Assembly (NCBI GenBank): GCA_014879655.1
Contig: JACSRS010000096.1
Coordinates: forward strand, 1 to 64,000
DNA length: 64,000 bases
Origin: Burkholderiaceae bacterium
GTDB taxonomy: Bacteria > Pseudomonadota > Gammaproteobacteria > Burkholderiales > Burkholderiaceae_C
Direction of reading: 5' to 3'
The notes below the pieces were generated by a model. That model was not told the DNA's origin, did not search any database, and saw only the letters and a program-made list of their open reading frames with translations. Positions 1,594-54,043 of this stretch are shown piece by piece. Position 1 is the first letter of the stretch, and the number at the start of each line of letters is the position of its first letter. A program made the translations under genes and the position numbers.

Positions 1594-4500
1594 TCAGGTT
1601 TGCGCTGTCACGGCAATCCCGCGCAGGTGTCCGGCTTTGGCTTCACGGACGGGCTGCGGATAACGATTCGGGTCCAGCCGATGCAACAATTCGGCCTCCC
1701 GCACCCGGGCCAGTCGCACATTGGCCAGCTTCACGTGACCGAAGCCGCGCATGGACAGCGGCACGGCGAGGATTTCCGCCACCCGCTTCAGATTGCCCGC
1801 TGACACCTGCGGCAGCAGTTCGAGCACCCGCGCTTCATAGTTCAGGAGCAGTTCCTGCTCCATGCGCCGCTCGGTGGTCCGGCCAAAAATGTCAAGCGGG
1901 GTGCCACGCAGCACCTTGCCACGGGCCAGCCAGCGCATGGCCGGCATCATCCAGGCGCCCAGCCGCATCTTTTTCGGCGCCTCGCCCCCCTTGGCGCGGG
2001 AGAGGAACGGCGGCGCCATGTAGAAGTCGAGTTGCACGTCGCCCTCGAACTGGCTCGCCAGCGCCGACTGGAACGCACCGTCGGTATAGAGGCGCGCCAC
2101 TTCGTATTCGTCCTTGATCGCCATCAGCTTGAACAGGCTGTTCGCCGCCACAGTCGTCAGCTTCCCTTCGCAGCAGGCGGACTTTTCAGCCTTTTGCACT
2201 TCGCGCACCAGCGCCTCGTAGCGGTCGGCCAGCGCGGCATTCTGGTAAGCGGTGAGGTGGGCGCGATGCCGCTTGATCAGCCCCTCCGGCGTTTCAGGCG
2301 GTGGCTGCTCCGCACGGCCTTCGACCAGTTCGCGGCAGGCGGCAGGGTCCGCAGCGGCCAGCCGTCCCAGCGCAAAGGACAGCAGATTGGCCTCGACCGC
2401 CACGCCGTTGAGCCGGATGGCACGCTCAAGCGCCGCGAGGCTGACCGGCACCAGAGCGCGCTGCCAGCCGTAGCCCAGCGCCAGGATGTTGGCCGTCAGC
2501 GTGTCGCCCAGAAAGTCCTCTGCCAGACTCTGCGCGTCAAAGGTTTCCACCCGGTCCTCACCCGCGACAAATTGCAGCTTCTCCAGCAGAAGATCGGTTT
2601 TCAGGCTGGCATCGGGGTTCTTCAGCGCTTCCGCCACCGGGATCGGGTGCGTGTTGACCAGCACGCGGGTGCGGCCAAAGCGCACCGTCTGCAGCGCCTC
2701 GGGTGACGCGCCGACAACGATGTCGCAGGCCAGCACCGCATCGGCCTGCTGGGTGTCGATGCGCACCTGATTCAGCCGCTCGGGCACATCGGCCAGCCGC
2801 ACGAACGAGAGCACCGAGCCGCCCTTCTGCGCAAAGCCCATGAAGTCCAGCACGCTGGCGCAGCGGCCTTCCAGGTGCGTGGCCATCGCGATCACCGCGC
2901 CCACCGTCACAACACCGGTGCCGCCGACGCCGGTGACGAGCAGGTCGTAAGGTCCGGTCCAGACGTGCGGCGCCGGTTGCGGCAACTCGGCCACACGGCG
3001 CAGGAAAGCGGCTTTGCCCTCACCGGCCAGCGCGCCCGCCTTCTTGCGCAGCCGCCCGCCGCTGACGCCGACAAAGCTGGGGCAAAAACCCTTGGCGCAG
3101 GAATAGTCCTTGTTGCACGCGGTCTGGTCGATCTTGCGTTTGCGGCCTAGCGCAGTCTCTTGTGGCAACACCGCCACGCAGTTGCTTTGCACCGTACAGT
3201 CGCCACACCCCTCACACACCGCTTCGTTGATGAACAGGCGCCGCGTCGGGTCTACCAGCTCCCCTTTCTTGCGCCGGCGACGCTTTTCTGCAGCGCAGGT
3301 CTGCTCGTAGATCAGCACGGTCACGCCCTTGACTTCACGCAGGCGGCGCTGCACGACGTCCAGTTCGCTGCGGTCGTGAAAGGTCGTGCCGGCCGGGAAC
3401 TTGCCACGCATCGCGTCGTATTGGGTGATGTCATCCGACACCACCACCACCTGCTTCACGCCTTCGCTCTCGACCTGGCGTGCGATGGCGTCCACGCTGG
3501 TCACGCCATCCACCGGCTGGCCGCCGGTCATGGCCACCGCGTCGTTGAACAATATCTTGTAGGTCAGTGTGGCTTTGGCAGCAACCGCCTGGCGGATGGC
3601 CAGGTAGCCCGAATGGTAGTAGGTGCCGTCGCCCAGGTTCTGGAACACATGCGGCGTGCGCGTGAACATCGCATGCGAGACCCAGTCCACACCCTCGCCG
3701 CCCATCTGGATCAGCCCGGCGGTTTCACGATCCATCCAGTTGGCCATGAAGTGGCAGCCGATGCCGGCCCGCGCGGTCGAGCCTTCCGGCACCTTGGTTG
3801 ATGTGTTGTGCGGGCACCCCGCGCAGAAGTACGGCACCCGCTTGACGCTGTCGCCGTCGTTCGACAGCAGCGTCGGCGGCGTGAAGTCGCGCACATGGCG
3901 GCGGTGATCGTTGAAGGTGGCGTTGTCCGGAAAGTGACGCACCAGCCAGTCGGCGATGATCTCGATCAGCCGGGACGGCCGCAACTCGTCCAGTGCCGAC
4001 ACCAATGGCTGCCCCGACGCATCACGCTTGCCGAGGATCACCGGGCGGGCGTCGGCCGGTGCGTTGTAGAACAGCTCACGCAACTGGTTCTCAACCACCG
4101 GGCCTTTTTCTTCAACCACCAGAATCTCGCCCAGCCCCTGCGCAAACGCGCGCATGCCGCTCTGCTCCAGCGGATAGCTCAGCCCCACCTTGTACAGGCG
4201 CACGCCGGCCGATGCCAACATGGCAGGTGTGATTTCCAGCCGGCGCAGCACTTCCATCAGGTCTGCGTGTGCCTTGCCGCAACTGACGATGCCCACCCGC
4301 GCCTGCGGCGACGCAATCACCTCGCGGTCGATGCGGTTCACGCGCGCAAACGCCGCCACCGCCTCCAGCTTGTGGGCCAGCCGCTGCTCCAGTGCCAGCG
4401 ACGGCAGATCGGGCCAGCGGTAATGCAGACCGTCGGGCGGCGGCGCTTGGCCGGTGGCGGCTTGCACCGCTTCACCACCTTGCCACTGGCTGGCGCGCGC

Positions 4501-48363: not shown

Positions 48364-48618
48364 TCAGTGCTCGTGTTTCATGCCGCAGTATTTGCCAATG
48401 GCCAGGCCCTTGCACGCGGCCTGAAGCTCCCTGTAACAGGCATCTGCCTTTCTCCCGGACTCCAGACATTTGGCCGCCGCCTCGTGCGCGGCAGCCATGG
48501 CGCGGTGGCGGGCCACGTCCTCCCGGACCTCTTTATCGCTGTGTTGCGCTACGGCATTGAGAGCAACAAAAGACCCGATGACGCTGGGAATCAACCATCT
48601 TTTTACGAATTTCGACAT
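48364..48618 (-). CDS. small secreted Cys/His-containing protein of the zinc locus
   Basis: An 84-residue protein with a signal peptide (SKFVKRWLIPSVIGSFVALN, cut near AVA-Q). The mature part has four Cys (AAKCLES, DACYREL, AACKGLA, KYCGMK) and ends KHEH. It is helical and charged. The pattern allows two disulfides or metal binding. AAGGTGAGAAA precedes the ATG. I know no family name; position suggests a periplasmic zinc handler, by analogy with the small protein next to the P. aeruginosa PA4064-PA4066 genes. Confidence 0.65.
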   Translation of the reverse strand: MSKFVKRWLIPSVIGSFVALNAVAQHSDKEVREDVARHRAMAAAHEAAAKCLESGRKADACYRELQAACKGLAIGKYCGMKHEH

Positions 48619-48623
48619 TTTTC

Positions 48624-49838
48624 TCACCTTGCATTCAACAGCCGGGCCACATCGACCCGGTAGGCACTGACGGCCGGCAAAAGGGCAGCGAGCACCGCCA
48701 CCCCCGCCGCCGCCAACGGCACCCACGCCTCGGCCGGCACCCACTGCCAGCCATGCACCACCACCGATTTTTCGGCCTGCAAAAACCATGCTGCCATAGC
48801 TGTCAAGCCGTGCCCCGCCGCCAGTCCCAGCGCCGAGGCCAGCAGCGCCAGCCAGAGCGCCTCCGAAAGCAGCAGCGCGCCCACCTTCCACGGCGGCGCG
48901 CCAAGCATGCGCAGCATCGCCAGGTCGGCGCGGCGCTCGCGCACGGCGCTCCACAGCGCGATGAACACCCCGAGTGCCGCCGTCATCAGAAGCACAGCCC
49001 CAAAGCCCTGCAGCACCTGCGTGCCGACGCTGACCATTCCGAGCAGCCGCGTGATCTCCACGGCCGGCGCGGCCGACTGCATGCCGGTGCTGCTGTTCAC
49101 GTAACGAGGAAAGGTCACAGCCGCCAGTGGCGTGGTGTAGCGGATCAGCGCCACCGTGACTTCGCGTTCGGCCTCCAGCGCGGCCTGGTCTTCCTTGTCC
49201 AGCGGGGTTTCACCGCTGTGCATGTCTTCGTGCACCTTCCAGACGGATTCGGTGGCCGTGAGGATCAGCCGGTCGAGCACGCAACCACAGGGCGCGAGCA
49301 CGCCGGTGACGGTGTACGGCGTGTGTGCGTGCTCATCGCCGCCCCCGCCCAGACCGTGCGAGCCGGCGAAGGGGTCACCAGTCTTCAGTCCGGTGGCAGC
49401 CGCCACCTGCGCGCCGAGCACGGCCTGCATCGGCGCGGCCCAGAGTTCGCCCTGCGCCAGCTGCGCCTCGTAATGAGCGATGTAGGCCGGCGTGGTACCG
49501 ACGATGCGAAAACCGCGAAAGCTGTCACCCAGGCTCAGCGGAATGAGCTGCGCCACCTGCGGGTGCTTCGCCAGCGCCTGCATGTCGGCCAGCGGAATAT
49601 TGCCCGGCGGCACGTCGATGTGAAAGACCCCGGCCAAGATCAGCTGCATCGGGCTGCCCTTGGCCCCCACCACCACATCGATGCCGGCCAGGTCGCGCTC
49701 GAAAGCGCGGTCCAACTGGTGGCTGGCCAGCAGCACGAAGGTCATGGAAGCCAGCCCCAGCGTCATCAGCAGCAGGTTCAGCCCGGCAGCGAGAGGCCGG
49801 GACCAGAGGTAACGCCATGAAAGAACCAATGTATTCAT
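48624..49838 (-). CDS. ABC transporter permease, MacB/FtsX type
   Basis: A 404-residue permease with an N-terminal helix, a large periplasmic domain (about residues 45-270) and three C-terminal helices, the MacB/FtsX layout. The periplasmic part carries GDEHAHTPY, PCGC and HEDMHSG, His and Cys groups that may relate to metal. The FtsX-type RERRADLAMLRMLGAPPWKV is present. Its start codon overlaps the ATPase stop (ATGA), and both lie inside a dispersed repeat. It belongs to the zur operon. Confidence 0.88.
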   Translation of the reverse strand: MNTLVLSWRYLWSRPLAAGLNLLLMTLGLASMTFVLLASHQLDRAFERDLAGIDVVVGAKGSPMQLILAGVFHIDVPPGNIPLADMQALAKHPQVAQLIPLSLGDSFRGFRIVGTTPAYIAHYEAQLAQGELWAAPMQAVLGAQVAAATGLKTGDPFAGSHGLGGGGDEHAHTPYTVTGVLAPCGCVLDRLILTATESVWKVHEDMHSGETPLDKEDQAALEAEREVTVALIRYTTPLAAVTFPRYVNSSTGMQSAAPAVEITRLLGMVSVGTQVLQGFGAVLLMTAALGVFIALWSAVRERRADLAMLRMLGAPPWKVGALLLSEALWLALLASALGLAAGHGLTAMAAWFLQAEKSVVVHGWQWVPAEAWVPLAAAGVAVLAALLPAVSAYRVDVARLLNAR

Positions 49839-49888
49839 AGCAAACTATGACCATCCGACGCTGGGATGATGCCATTTTTGCTTGAAAA
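49831..49888 (+). repeat. dispersed repeat, copy e, inside coding sequence
   Basis: ATTCATAGCAAACTATGACC, then ATCCGACGCTGGGATGATGC and CATTTTTGCTTGAAA. This copy is not intergenic. Read on the minus strand it codes the last 17 or so residues of the ABC ATPase (FSSKNGIIPASDGHSLL), its TGA stop and the overlapping ATG of the permease. See the finding on this junction. Confidence 0.8.
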
Positions 49889-50515
49889 CAGCAGTTCAGT
49901 CGCCTGGGGCAGCGCTTCGGCCACGCGCCGGTCGTGCGTGGCGATCACCAGCGTCGCGCCACAGGCTGCGGCGCTCTCGCGCAGCAGGGCCAGCGCCGAC
50001 GCACACGCAAAGTCATCAAGGCTGGCCGTGGGCTCGTCGGCCAGGATCACACGCGGCGCACGCAGCACGGCGCGCGCCAGTGCCACACGCTGCGCCTGCC
50101 CGCCCGAGAGCTGATCGGGCTTGCGTTGTGCCAGATCGGCCACACCCAGGACATCAAGCGTGCGGGTGATGGCGCCTGGGTCTACCGGCAGCCCGCCCGC
50201 GTAATAGACCAGCGCGAGGTTGCCGGCCACGCTCAGCGCGTCGCTGAGGTATAGCTTCTGCGGCAACAGGCCGATGGCCCCGGCGCGCCAGGCGTCACGG
50301 GCACGCCCACCCAGCACACCCAAAGGCTGGCCTGCCACGATCATCTCGCCCTCGGTGGCGGTCAGCAGACCGGCCGCCAGCGCCAGCCAGGTCGATTTCC
50401 CGCTGCCCGAGGGTCCACGCAGCAGCAGCGTGCCACCTTGATCGACCCGCACGTCGGGGAAGCGCATTGTCGCGCCGCCGGGGTAGCAATAGGCCATCTG
50501 GCGGCTCACTATCAT
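49835..50515 (-). CDS. ABC transporter ATP-binding protein of the MacB-like pair
   Basis: A 226-residue ATPase with Walker A RGPSGSGKST, signature LSGGQAQRVALARAVL, Walker B VILADEPTASLD and the H-loop VIATHDRR. It is of the LolD/MacB class. The final 17 residues are encoded by a dispersed repeat and lack similarity to the family. ATG at 50515 overlaps the zur stop by four bases. It powers the FtsX-type permease downstream. Confidence 0.9.
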   Translation of the reverse strand: MIVSRQMAYCYPGGATMRFPDVRVDQGGTLLLRGPSGSGKSTWLALAAGLLTATEGEMIVAGQPLGVLGGRARDAWRAGAIGLLPQKLYLSDALSVAGNLALVYYAGGLPVDPGAITRTLDVLGVADLAQRKPDQLSGGQAQRVALARAVLRAPRVILADEPTASLDDFACASALALLRESAAACGATLVIATHDRRVAEALPQATELLFSSKNGIIPASDGHSLL

Positions 50516-51018
50516 GCTCGCCCACCCGGCACGTGAGTGGCGCAATCCGCGCAAACGCCGCGCACCGCGAAGTCCACCGTCAAGCCCTGGTACCCCAGGG
50601 CTTTGAGCGCCTGCAGCGCCGTCTGTGCCGCTTTGTCCAGATCCAGAGCGCTGCCCTGCAAGGCGCTGTCCAGCGGGCGGTCGCGGTGGCAGCTCTGGCA
50701 CTCAAAGTGGGGGATAGCATGAACACTGGGAGGCATGGACTGATACCGGCGAACGCGCTGGGTATCCACCCGGCACAACAGCAGGCCCGCCTGGGTCAGC
50801 CTGTCGATCAGGCGGTAGAGGGTGACTCTGTCCATCGCGTCACCACTATTCGCCCCCCCGGCATCCGCCAGCGCCGCCTGCAACTGGCCATGGGTATAGC
50901 TGGTCGTGGGGTGAGCCAGCAGCCATCCCAGCACTTTTCGCGCGGCAGCGGTGCGGCGCAGCCCGTGGGCCGCCAGCAGCGCGTCGATGGAGTCGGTATT
51001 GGCAGGCGCAAGTGCCAT
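50512..51018 (-). CDS. zur: Fur-family zinc uptake regulator Zur
   Basis: A 168-residue Fur-family repressor. The winged helix is LRRTAAARKVLGWLLAHPTT and DAMDRVTLYRLIDRLTQAGL, and the dimer domain has the structural zinc Cys pairs HFECQSCHRD and GVCADCATH. Zur rather than Fur is inferred from its position between zinc ABC genes. AGGAAAT precedes the ATG at 51018. It heads the operon that includes the MacB-like pair, so it probably represses itself. Confidence 0.85.
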   Translation of the reverse strand: MALAPANTDSIDALLAAHGLRRTAAARKVLGWLLAHPTTSYTHGQLQAALADAGGANSGDAMDRVTLYRLIDRLTQAGLLLCRVDTQRVRRYQSMPPSVHAIPHFECQSCHRDRPLDSALQGSALDLDKAAQTALQALKALGYQGLTVDFAVRGVCADCATHVPGGRA

Positions 51019-51084: not shown

Positions 51085-51105
51085 TATCGCAACAAAGTTG
51101 CAATA
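51085..51105. promoter_or_regulatory. Zur-like box 1
   Basis: TAT-C-GCAAC-AAA-GTTGC-A-ATA is a 21-bp dyad with perfect GCAAC/GTTGC arms and matching TAT/ATA ends. It lies between zur and the divergent zinc import genes, about 67 bases from the zur start. A second dyad of the same design lies 26 bp away. Confidence 0.6.
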
Positions 51106-51110
51106 GCATC

Positions 51111-51131
51111 TAACGCAATTCAGTTGCATTA
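51111..51131. promoter_or_regulatory. Zur-like box 2
   Basis: TAACGCAA-TTCAG-TTGCATTA is a 21-bp imperfect dyad, centre to centre 26 bp from box 1. It shares the GCAA/TTGC core. It overlaps the first base of the start codon of the 63-residue membrane protein, so a bound repressor would block that gene directly. Confidence 0.55.
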
Positions 51132-51322
51132 TGAACCCAACCCAAGACGTTGACCCGCAATCCGCGGCAAGCAAGGACGCCAAGCCGGTGAGTTTTCATT
51201 GCGCGGGCACGCGAAGTGTGCTGGCGTGGCCCGCGTGGTTGCGCCTGCTGACGGTGGCGCCCGCGTTGCTGCTGCTCTGGCTGGCTGTGCTGTGGGCTCT
51301 CTCGGATCTGGTGCCGCGATGA
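51131..51322 (+). CDS. 63-residue single-helix membrane protein at the head of the zinc import operon
   Basis: A small protein that I do not recognise. Residues 1-30 are hydrophilic, then one membrane helix LRLLTVAPALLLLWLAVLWA and a short tail SDLVPR. It carries single Cys and His residues (SFHCAG) before the helix. Its stop overlaps the ZnuC-like ATG (ATGA), so it is translated with the transporter. The start at 51131 lies in a Zur-like box, and no clear ribosome binding site is visible. It may be a transporter accessory subunit. Confidence 0.55.
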   Translation: MNPTQDVDPQSAASKDAKPVSFHCAGTRSVLAWPAWLRLLTVAPALLLLWLAVLWALSDLVPR

Positions 51323-52155
51323 ACTCTGCCTCAAGTCCTGCCGGACACGGGGCGCCGCTGGTGGACCTGGACAACCTGACCGTGAGCTACCGCAAGCATC
51401 CCGCCCTGCACCACATATCCGGCGTATTTGCGCAAGGGTCGCTCACTGCGGTCATGGGGCCCAATGGCTCGGGAAAAAGTACGCTCTTAAAGAGCATTGC
51501 CGGGCTGCTGCCTGTTGGCTGCGACCGCCCGGCCGCTGCCCTCCAGGTCAATCTGAACCACCGCCCGATGGCGTATCTGCCGCAGTTCAGCGAGATCGAC
51601 CGCAGCTTCCCGATCGATGTGAAGGACTGCGTGCTGCTGGGCTTGTGGGGCCGCACGGGGCCGCTGGGCGGCATGGGTGCGGCGATGCTGGAGCGGGTGG
51701 ACGCGGCCCTTCATTCGGTGGGTCTGCAGGGTTTCGAGCGACGCAGCGTGGGTTCACTGTCCAGCGGGCAGTTTCAGCGGGTCTTGTTTGCCCGCCTGCT
51801 GGTGCAGGACGCCGACCTGATTCTGCTGGACGAGCCCTTCAACGCTATGGACGCGCGAACCACGGCCGACCTGCTGGCACTGGTTCAACACTGGCACCAG
51901 GAGCGTCGCACCGTGATCGCCGTGCTGCACGACGAAGCCCAGGTACGCCAGCACTTCCCTCAGACCTTGTTACTGGCGCGCGAGCGGGTGGCTTGGGGGC
52001 CCACCGCCGTCGTACTCACCCCGGAAAACCTGCAGCGCGCCCGTGCCATGGCCGAAGCCTGGGACGAAACGGCCCGGGTGTGTGAGCTTGACGTCGCGCC
52101 CACGGGCCCGATGGACCCCTCGCGGACGCAGGCGCCAAGCTCCACGGCGGTTTGA
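51319..52155 (+). CDS. znuC: zinc/manganese ABC transporter ATP-binding protein
   Basis: A 278-residue ATPase of the metal importer class. Walker A VMGPNGSGKSTLL, the signature LSSGQFQRVLFARLLVQDAD, Walker B LILLDEPFNAMD and H-loop AVLHDEAQ are present. Its coupling to a metal permease and binding protein under Zur indicates zinc. The gene order ATPase-permease-binding protein also fits the AztABC type. ATG at 51319 overlaps the small membrane protein gene. Confidence 0.88.
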   Translation: MNSASSPAGHGAPLVDLDNLTVSYRKHPALHHISGVFAQGSLTAVMGPNGSGKSTLLKSIAGLLPVGCDRPAAALQVNLNHRPMAYLPQFSEIDRSFPIDVKDCVLLGLWGRTGPLGGMGAAMLERVDAALHSVGLQGFERRSVGSLSSGQFQRVLFARLLVQDADLILLDEPFNAMDARTTADLLALVQHWHQERRTVIAVLHDEAQVRQHFPQTLLLARERVAWGPTAVVLTPENLQRARAMAEAWDETARVCELDVAPTGPMDPSRTQAPSSTAV

Positions 52156-52165
52156 AGGCCACGCC

Positions 52166-53059
52166 ATGGACACACTGTTGATCGGCGCATGGACCGTCCT
52201 GTTCGCACCGTTTGCCGAATTCGCCTTCATGCGCCGGGCGCTGGTGGCCGTTTTGGCCCTGGCGCTCAGTGCAGCGCCGCTGGGCGTGTTCCTGACCTTG
52301 CGGCGGATGAGCCTTCTGGGCGATGCGCTGAGCCATGCCGTGCTGCCCGGCGTGGCCATCGGCTTCCTGGTGGCGGGTCTGTCGCTGCCGGCGATGGCCC
52401 TGGGCGGTGTGGTGGCGGGGCTGGTGGTTGCGGGCATCGCCGGCCTGGTCAGCCGGTTGACGCTGCTCAGGGAGGACGCCAGCCTGGCTGCTTTCTACCT
52501 GGTAGCCCTGGCCCTGGGCGTGACGCTGATCTCCCGCCACGGCACGCAGCTGGATTTGCTGCACATCCTGTTTGGCAGCGCTCTGGGGGTGGACGACGCC
52601 GCACTGCTACTGGTTGCCGGTATTGCCACGGTCAGCGTGCTCGCGCTCGCGCTGATGTACCGCGGCCTGGTGTTGGAGACCTTTGACCCTGGCTTTCTCA
52701 AGGTCCGGCACGGGACTCACTTGGGCGGATGGGTGTGGCACCAGGGTTTTCTGCTGCTGGTGGTGGTGAACCTGGTGGCGGGCTTTCAGACCCTGGGAAC
52801 CTTGATGGCCGTGGGCCTGATGATGCTGCCCGCCGTGTCCGCGCGCCTGTGGCATGACACCTTGCCCGCGCAGTTGATGAACGCCAGCCTGCAAGCCTGC
52901 ATGGCAGGGTTCGCGGGCCTGCTGCTGTCGTACCACCTGGATACGCCTTCGGGGCCGACCATCATCGGCTGCGCCGGCGCACTCTATTTTGTCTCGCTGG
53001 TTCTGGCACCGGCAGGCTGGCTACCCCGCTGGCGCGACACCTCGCACCGGGTTGCGTGA
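52166..53059 (+). CDS. znuB: zinc ABC transporter permease
   Basis: A 297-residue membrane protein of eight or so helices. The family motif TLRRMSLLGDALSHAVLPGVAIGF near residues 45-68, DLLHILFGSALG and GTLMAVGLMMLPAVSARLW match ABC-3 metal permeases. ATG at 52166 lies ten bases after the ATPase gene. It is the transport channel of the importer. Confidence 0.92.
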   Translation: MDTLLIGAWTVLFAPFAEFAFMRRALVAVLALALSAAPLGVFLTLRRMSLLGDALSHAVLPGVAIGFLVAGLSLPAMALGGVVAGLVVAGIAGLVSRLTLLREDASLAAFYLVALALGVTLISRHGTQLDLLHILFGSALGVDDAALLLVAGIATVSVLALALMYRGLVLETFDPGFLKVRHGTHLGGWVWHQGFLLLVVVNLVAGFQTLGTLMAVGLMMLPAVSARLWHDTLPAQLMNASLQACMAGFAGLLLSYHLDTPSGPTIIGCAGALYFVSLVLAPAGWLPRWRDTSHRVA

Positions 53060-53125: not shown

Positions 53126-54043
53126 ATGAACCCCTCCCGACGCATTCTCCTGGCAAGCAGTCTGATCCTGGCACTGACGAAAAGCGGTCTCGCCAACGCC
53201 GACGACAAAATCCCGGTCGCGGCCAGCTTCAGCATCCTCGGCGACCTGGTGCGTGTCGTAGGCGGCGACCGCGTGGCTGTCACCACGCTGGTGGGGCCCG
53301 ACCAGGACGCGCATGCGTTTGAACCCAGGCCAGCCGACGCCAGGACCCTTCTCGCCACGAAGCTGTTTGTGACCAACGGTCTGAGCTTCGAGCCCTGGGC
53401 CACCAGGCTGGCCCAAGCCACAGGCTACCGCGGCGCCACTGTCGTGGCCTCGAAAGGCGTCAAGCCGATCCCATCCGGCGCGCCCGGCAATCACGGCAGT
53501 CATCGACACGAAACCGCCGATCCGCATGCCTGGCAGGATCCAGAAAACGTGGTGCTGTACGTGCGCAACATCGCTGCCGGCTTGTCCGGAATCGATCCCC
53601 AGGGGGCCAACGGGTATCAGGCCAACGCTGAAGCCTATGCCAAGGAACTCCGGGCGCTGGACGCCTGGGCCCGCGAACAATTCGCAGCCATCCCGCTGGA
53701 CAAGCGCAAGGTGATCACTTCGCATGACGCTTTTGGCTACCTGGCAGCGCGCTACCAGATCCGGTTTCTGGCACCCCAGGGCGTGAACACCGATGCAGCG
53801 CCGGGCGCAAGGCAGGTGGCCCGCCTCATCGAGCAAATCCTGCGTGAAAAAATCAAGGCTGTGTTTGTGGAGAACATGAGCAACCCCAAACTGATCGAAC
53901 AACTTGCCAAGGATACTGGTGTCGCGGTCGGGGCCCGCCTGTATGCCGATGCCCTGTCTTCCGCCGGCCAGCCCGGTTCCAGCTACCTGCTGATGATGCG
54001 ACACAACGTGGCCCAACTGGCGGCGGGAATGAAGCTGAACTGA
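53126..54043 (+). CDS. znuA: zinc ABC transporter substrate-binding protein
   Basis: A 305-residue periplasmic protein with a signal peptide (residues 1-25, ANA-D). The metal-binding residues of cluster A-I proteins are present: His in GPDQDAHAFEP, His in ADPHAWQDPENV, and Asp/His in TSHDAFGYLAARY. A short His-rich loop NHGSHRHE precedes the second. The ASFSILGDLVRVVGGDRV start is typical of the AztC/ZnuA group. It completes the importer. Confidence 0.9.
   Translation: MNPSRRILLASSLILALTKSGLANADDKIPVAASFSILGDLVRVVGGDRVAVTTLVGPDQDAHAFEPRPADARTLLATKLFVTNGLSFEPWATRLAQATGYRGATVVASKGVKPIPSGAPGNHGSHRHETADPHAWQDPENVVLYVRNIAAGLSGIDPQGANGYQANAEAYAKELRALDAWAREQFAAIPLDKRKVITSHDAFGYLAARYQIRFLAPQGVNTDAAPGARQVARLIEQILREKIKAVFVENMSNPKLIEQLAKDTGVAVGARLYADALSSAGQPGSSYLLMMRHNVAQLAAGMKLN

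Follow-up and report, generated by a model that had tools for sequence, protein, structure and literature searches.

Zinc ABC importers of the AztABCD and ZniCBA class, described as AztABCD in Paracoccus denitrificans and as ZniCBA in Klebsiella and Rhizobium leguminosarum, have so far been studied as sets of three or four proteins. In the accessible parts of the literature, Klebsiella ZniCBA and P. denitrificans AztABCD (the latter known here by publication) have been published as working importers, and there are reports of Zur-type control of zniCBA in R. leguminosarum and of azt in P. denitrificans (PMC12183173, PMC5387054). The available portion of the Rhizobium account places a Zur box 153 bp upstream of zniC and records only basal activity for an 88-bp promoter fragment (PMC12183173). 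As far as the accessible text of four accounts of these systems goes, no small gene is mentioned beside the importer genes (PMC12183173, PMC10797113, PMC5387054, PMC7463823). The "ZniCBA" of Cupriavidus shares only the name, being an unrelated efflux pump.

The locus described here lies in a 64,000-nucleotide stretch of DNA from a Burkholderiaceae bacterium (hereafter the window), and its importer operon resembles AztABCD and ZniCBA in three proteins: AztA, AztB and AztC are the top-scoring models for the ATPase, the permease and the binding protein, respectively (206.6, 232.7 and 288.5 bits, each below its curated NCBIfam cut-off of 220, 280 and 350). It differs from both in an extra small gene. 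The original prediction had named the ATPase ZnuC and considered a Znu importer; because NCBIfam ranks AztA, AztB and AztC first, with Znu models scoring far lower or not among the matches shown, "AztABC/ZniCBA type" is the better label. The ATPase groups in a tree with Azt-type rows, away from the Sit-like clade. The host genome contains no AztD candidate at E ≤ 1e-40, so the locus does not belong to AztABCD in the full, four-protein sense.

Table 1. Features of the small gene, the importer operon and its upstream region, with positions in the window.
Feature	Positions	Strand	Remarks
Fur/Zur-like regulator, two CxxC motifs	50512..51018	-	Divergent; matches Pfam FUR below cut-off only
Palindromic operator-like box 1 (TATCGCAACAAAGTTGCAATA)	51085..51105	.	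Genome-wide match scan; GCAA-5-TTGC repeat in relatives
Palindromic operator-like box 2 (TAACGCAATTCAGTTGCATTA)	51111..51131	.	Overlaps first base of ATG 51131
63-residue frame from ATG (original prediction)	51131..51322	+	Start probably unused
Small one-helix protein, proposed coding sequence	51188..51322	+	GTG start, 44 aa, TGA stop; rests on Shine-Dalgarno, box distance, AlphaFold helix and selection
AztA/ZniC-type ABC ATPase	51319..52155	+	Four-base ATGA overlap with small gene
AztB/ZniB-type permease (ABC-3)	52166..53059	+	
AztC/ZniA-type zinc-binding protein (ZnuA family)	53126..54043	+	

Upstream of the operon, the inverted repeat that had been read as a Zur-like box proved to be double, and with up to three mismatches allowed, nothing else in the host genome matches its two boxes. 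Among 62 distinct Burkholderiales upstream regions, 57 contain a GCAA-5-TTGC repeat. The divergent regulator has a Fur-family regulator as its top PDB sequence match (E = 0.0062), and when five of its orthologues were scanned against Pfam FUR, four matched, all below the cut-off, and one did not match. The operon may be under Zur-type control; it has a divergent Fur-like protein, itself below the Pfam cut-off, and two boxes unique in the genome. A scan for sigma-70 promoters found none. Behind the regulator gene, the minus strand (48364-50515) encodes an ABC ATPase and a permease of the FtsX/MacB type (54 bits for Pfam FtsX; also MacB_PCD), followed by a small protein that ends in HEH and has no Pfam match. 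We take this arrangement to resemble PA4063-PA4066 of Pseudomonas, which is under Zur control. Many relatives also show a second, divergently placed ATPase match.

The small gene had been read as a 63-codon frame opening in the Zur-like box, and that frame is indeed present, its terminal ATGA common to the ATPase start at 51319. The ATG at 51131 does use the last base of box 2, but it is probably not the start that is used. It lacks a Shine-Dalgarno sequence (duplex +0.5 kcal/mol). GTG 51188, by contrast, is preceded by one of -5.1 kcal/mol and stands 59 nt past box 2, as in many relatives; most relatives offer a start some 15-60 nt past the last box, and an ATG 2 nt past the box recurs in a few (L005, L108, L110, L111, L117 and L119). 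Because of the Shine-Dalgarno contrast and this spacing, GTG 51188 fits better, and our preferred reading is that the product is probably 44 residues long (51188-51319). The SFHCAG segment to which the original prediction drew attention survives in this shorter form, but the alignment of relatives shows that it is not a conserved feature.

To ask whether the frame is conserved, relatives were collected both through the small protein and through the ATPase. Among 399 genomes of the host's family, 38 contain a match to the small protein at E ≤ 0.01, the strong matches lying directly before such an ATPase. Searching by the ATPase yielded 80 loci from a named collection and 30 more from 150 genomes of the host family; a short hydrophobic frame is found just upstream of the ATPase in 113 of 131 parsed loci, a few of these frames being spurious (for example L053). 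Before counting, 12 loci were left out as duplicates or odd (L053), as were further identical sequences. From 70 cores, 47 were aligned over 37 positions into a core-only profile (A1), with the window protein as its first row. The core reads S-x-L-x-x-x-A-x-x-R followed by a helix ending in LW....WA, whereas the N-terminal tails are very different; the arginine at the helix start is invariant (47/47), and L7, L25, W26, W31 and A32 each occur in at least 90% of the aligned cores.

When A1 was searched against 398 Pseudomonadota genomes, 74 matches were obtained, and for the linkage count an AztA model was run over 398 genomes drawn likewise. Counted among the AztA matches listed, at least 66 of the 74 have an AztA-type ATPase 27-81 bp downstream of them on the same strand; all 59 matches with E ≤ 8e-4 adjoin such an ATPase, and the other eight of the 74 are weak. 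Apart from G000 and G091 these searches are independent of the loci from which A1 was built, and as the linkage holds in genomes not used for the profile, the window protein (E = 1.9e-11 against A1, whose first row it is) falls within a new family. The linkage is kept with differing upstream neighbours, including DUF1826, HTH and TetR proteins and a divergent Zur. Close relatives thus do carry the frame on which the original prediction hinged, and it is kept at the protein level immediately upstream of AztA-type ATPases in alpha-, beta- and gammaproteobacteria.

The junction with the ATPase gene is equally persistent. The reading-frame phase of ATGA-, GTGA- or TAATG-type junctions is found in 62 of the 66 adjacent A1 matches, and among 108 distinct loci not selected via the small protein, 95 show the overlap phase and 76 an ATGA, GTGA or TTGA ending. 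(A separate count of 97/108 is partly circular, A1 having been built partly from loci L003-L141.) As the stop/start overlap is kept across loci, coupling of the small gene to aztA is, at the level of sequence, a conserved feature of gene layout. Fusion of the two proteins was considered and rejected: none is in frame, the 66 adjacent distances being 0 (n = 62) or 2 (n = 4) modulo 3, and we read three apparent in-frame fusions as overlapping-frame read-through; these three came from a scan that left out L058 and L073 and whose pattern missed some real cases.

To examine where the small gene occurs, presence was placed on a tree of AztA-like proteins. It is found in 112 of 148 rows, a frequency biased by rows fetched for carrying the small protein, and presence changes 7 times, where shuffled labels need 32.7 changes on average. 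By our reading of the tree, the 36 rows without it comprise 16 Sit/Mnt-like or far outliers and 20 Azt-type rows, that is, 20 of 132 non-redundant Azt-type rows. These 20 are an AztABCD-type clade (Rhizobiaceae and Paracoccus), the Klebsiella zniCBA copy, one Burkholderiales clade, Bradyrhizobium sp. 131 and L129, the last with a copy below the profile cut-off that is recognisable by eye. In particular, the gene is missing from the aztABCD locus of Paracoccus sp. MA and from the plasmid copy of zniCBA in Klebsiella; since importers of these two types are published as working, the absence argues that the small protein is accessory rather than core or essential to transport. Because PLSDB gene tables are incomplete, "no gene listed" counts for little as evidence of absence. 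The Burkholderiales clade consists of L043, L045, L048, L052-L055 and L061, with no detectable small gene, and its sister rows (L041, L046, L047, L050 and L051) retain strongly diverged versions. At L211, a plasmid of Bradyrhizobium sp. 131, the AztA-like ATPase (1342-2223) is annotated with a longer N-terminus and there is no separate small gene; at a Deinococcus locus the small protein was not found. Nor is AztD supported as a simple substitute as a rule: AztD matches occur in 7 of 80 genomes picked for high AztA score, one genome (G611) has both an AztD match and a small gene that the profile initially missed, and several Rhizobiaceae have neither.

In the Rhizobium lineage, Rhizobium paknamense carries a small gene that begins at ATG 3870, after a TGTTATA-type Zur-like palindrome, and ends in an ATGA shared with aztA at 3992. 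By analogy with this matching space, the 153-bp gap upstream of R. leguminosarum zniC may hold a small gene too.

The original prediction had cited no known subunit of this kind in Znu or Azt importers, and the family is indeed unnamed in Pfam and NCBIfam. No model of either covers the window protein (DUF3099 reaches 14.4 bits against a cut-off of 23.2), PDB sequence searches likewise gave no known small family, and the public label, as in three plasmid records from Skermanella, Comamonas and Thioclava, is "hypothetical protein". CbtB-like and other small His-rich membrane metal proteins are also short, with one helix and a His-rich part, but the window family has no Pfam match to any of them and its conserved motif lies in the helix. 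KdpF is a small one-helix subunit of a membrane complex. CydX and AcrZ likewise associate with a membrane complex, according to the accessible parts of their descriptions (PMC4325964, PMC7267776). The window protein resembles these three in its small size, its predicted single helix and its place alongside a membrane complex, but shares no Pfam or NCBIfam family with them, would have an ABC metal importer as partner, and belongs to a family part of which has a His-rich tail. A literature search that took in few subscription papers returned no recognised description of such a subunit (PMC11647595, in its available part; PMC10903887, with no zinc match).

Taken together, these findings make it probable that the small protein is a translationally coupled accessory subunit of the AztABC/ZniCBA-type importer, a single-span inner-membrane protein likely to pack on AztB. 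Protein-level conservation and linkage to AztA thus support the accessory subunit first proposed, with its start, its Znu affiliation and the supposed conservation of SFHCAG corrected. It would come first among the products of a zinc-starvation operon (small gene-aztA-aztB-aztC) that the divergent Fur/Zur-like regulator would control through the two palindromic operators. Because the ATGA/GTGA overlap would couple translation of the ATPase to that of the small gene, we propose that both proteins are made together at the membrane. There the small protein most likely binds AztB, packing against the permease through the invariant arginine and the LW....WA helix end, and would stabilise or tune the importer. 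Against this reading count the Azt-type rows that have no small gene, a conservation of the helix that is not significantly one-sided (100-degree moment, P = 0.12), the lack of any natural fusion to AztA among the adjacent matches, and a His tail that only part of the family has.

An alternative, raised at the outset, is that translating the small frame serves mainly to control aztA translation, making the gene a leader or coupling cistron whose peptide has no separate job. Its small size, its place first in the operon beside the operator, and the conserved stop/start overlap would all suit such a role. What speaks most strongly against a mere leader, however, is selection on the residues themselves. 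Across 38 independent core pairs, the proposed frame gives a dN/dS of 0.24 and each of the other two frames a value above 1, pN is below pS in every pair (38/38), and changes at codon positions 1, 2 and 3 number 157, 84 and 282; by these codon comparisons, made like the tail statistics on motif-matching frames only (95 and 96 distinct, respectively, of 113), the core is under purifying selection at the protein level, and we infer that the frame is translated in vivo. The invariant arginine and the helix motif also recur across classes, the alignment shows no conserved run of regulatory codons, and there is no Rfam match and no unusual or stable RNA fold at the junction (z = +1.24), so that we regard a mere leader as quite improbable. 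The GC-rich DNA of the window yields many long frames, and a chance frame might be expected on that ground, but conservation, linkage and selection would be unexpected for one; in our view the 38/38 pairs and the AztA linkage rule it out, leaving it hardly any probability.

A further possibility is a membrane-bound zinc sensor, buffer or chaperone, whose His-rich cytosolic tail would take zinc at the exit or shut the importer, with the helix mainly an anchor or docking element. As originally predicted, a single segment of the protein is strongly hydrophobic (Kyte-Doolittle maximum of 2.41 over 19 residues), and AlphaFold models the 44-residue form as a single helix over residues 16-41 (mean pLDDT 80.3, about 95 mid-helix), in agreement with a single transmembrane helix. 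Because Lys and Arg are more abundant in the N-terminal than in the C-terminal flank (95 of 96 proteins), the topology is predicted to be N-in, which would place the tail in the cytosol. Tails with at least three His occur in 37 of the 96, and His makes up 13.7% of tail residues in frame, compared with 4.2% and 4.8% when that DNA is read in its other frames. Heuristic start-codon assignment means that these tail statistics may include untranslated parts. However, 59 of 96 tails have fewer than three His, including 38-residue proteins nearly without a tail, the window protein has a short tail with one His and one Cys, and conservation falls on the helix rather than on the tail; we therefore think a dedicated sensor, buffer or chaperone unlikely. 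The most His-rich tails belong to Bradyrhizobium and similar loci (L138, L141, L126, L200 and L216), where HSHGHAH-type runs precede a conserved SILRM core. Within the accessory-subunit reading, the cytosolic tail, which varies between relatives and is rich in His in more than one third of them, would probably bind zinc near the exit side, and a zinc-handling tail is plausible for the His-rich members only. More tentatively, the protein could be a fourth subunit of this importer class, a coupled one-helix protein whose tail receives exiting zinc or senses it and shuts the pump, a possibility that we hold as somewhat doubtful.

In summary, we find an unnamed family of small proteins that is tied to zinc ABC importers of the AztABC/ZniCBA type and is probably an overlooked part of them. 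Should most relatives carry a small partner in front of the ATPase, it may have been lost or changed without notice in mutants, complementation plasmids and promoter deletions constructed without it. The small protein is a candidate new subunit and may help to explain how the cytosolic side receives imported zinc or controls it by feedback; were the fourth-subunit proposal true, it would give cluster A-I importers a built-in device for exit-side zinc handover or feedback.
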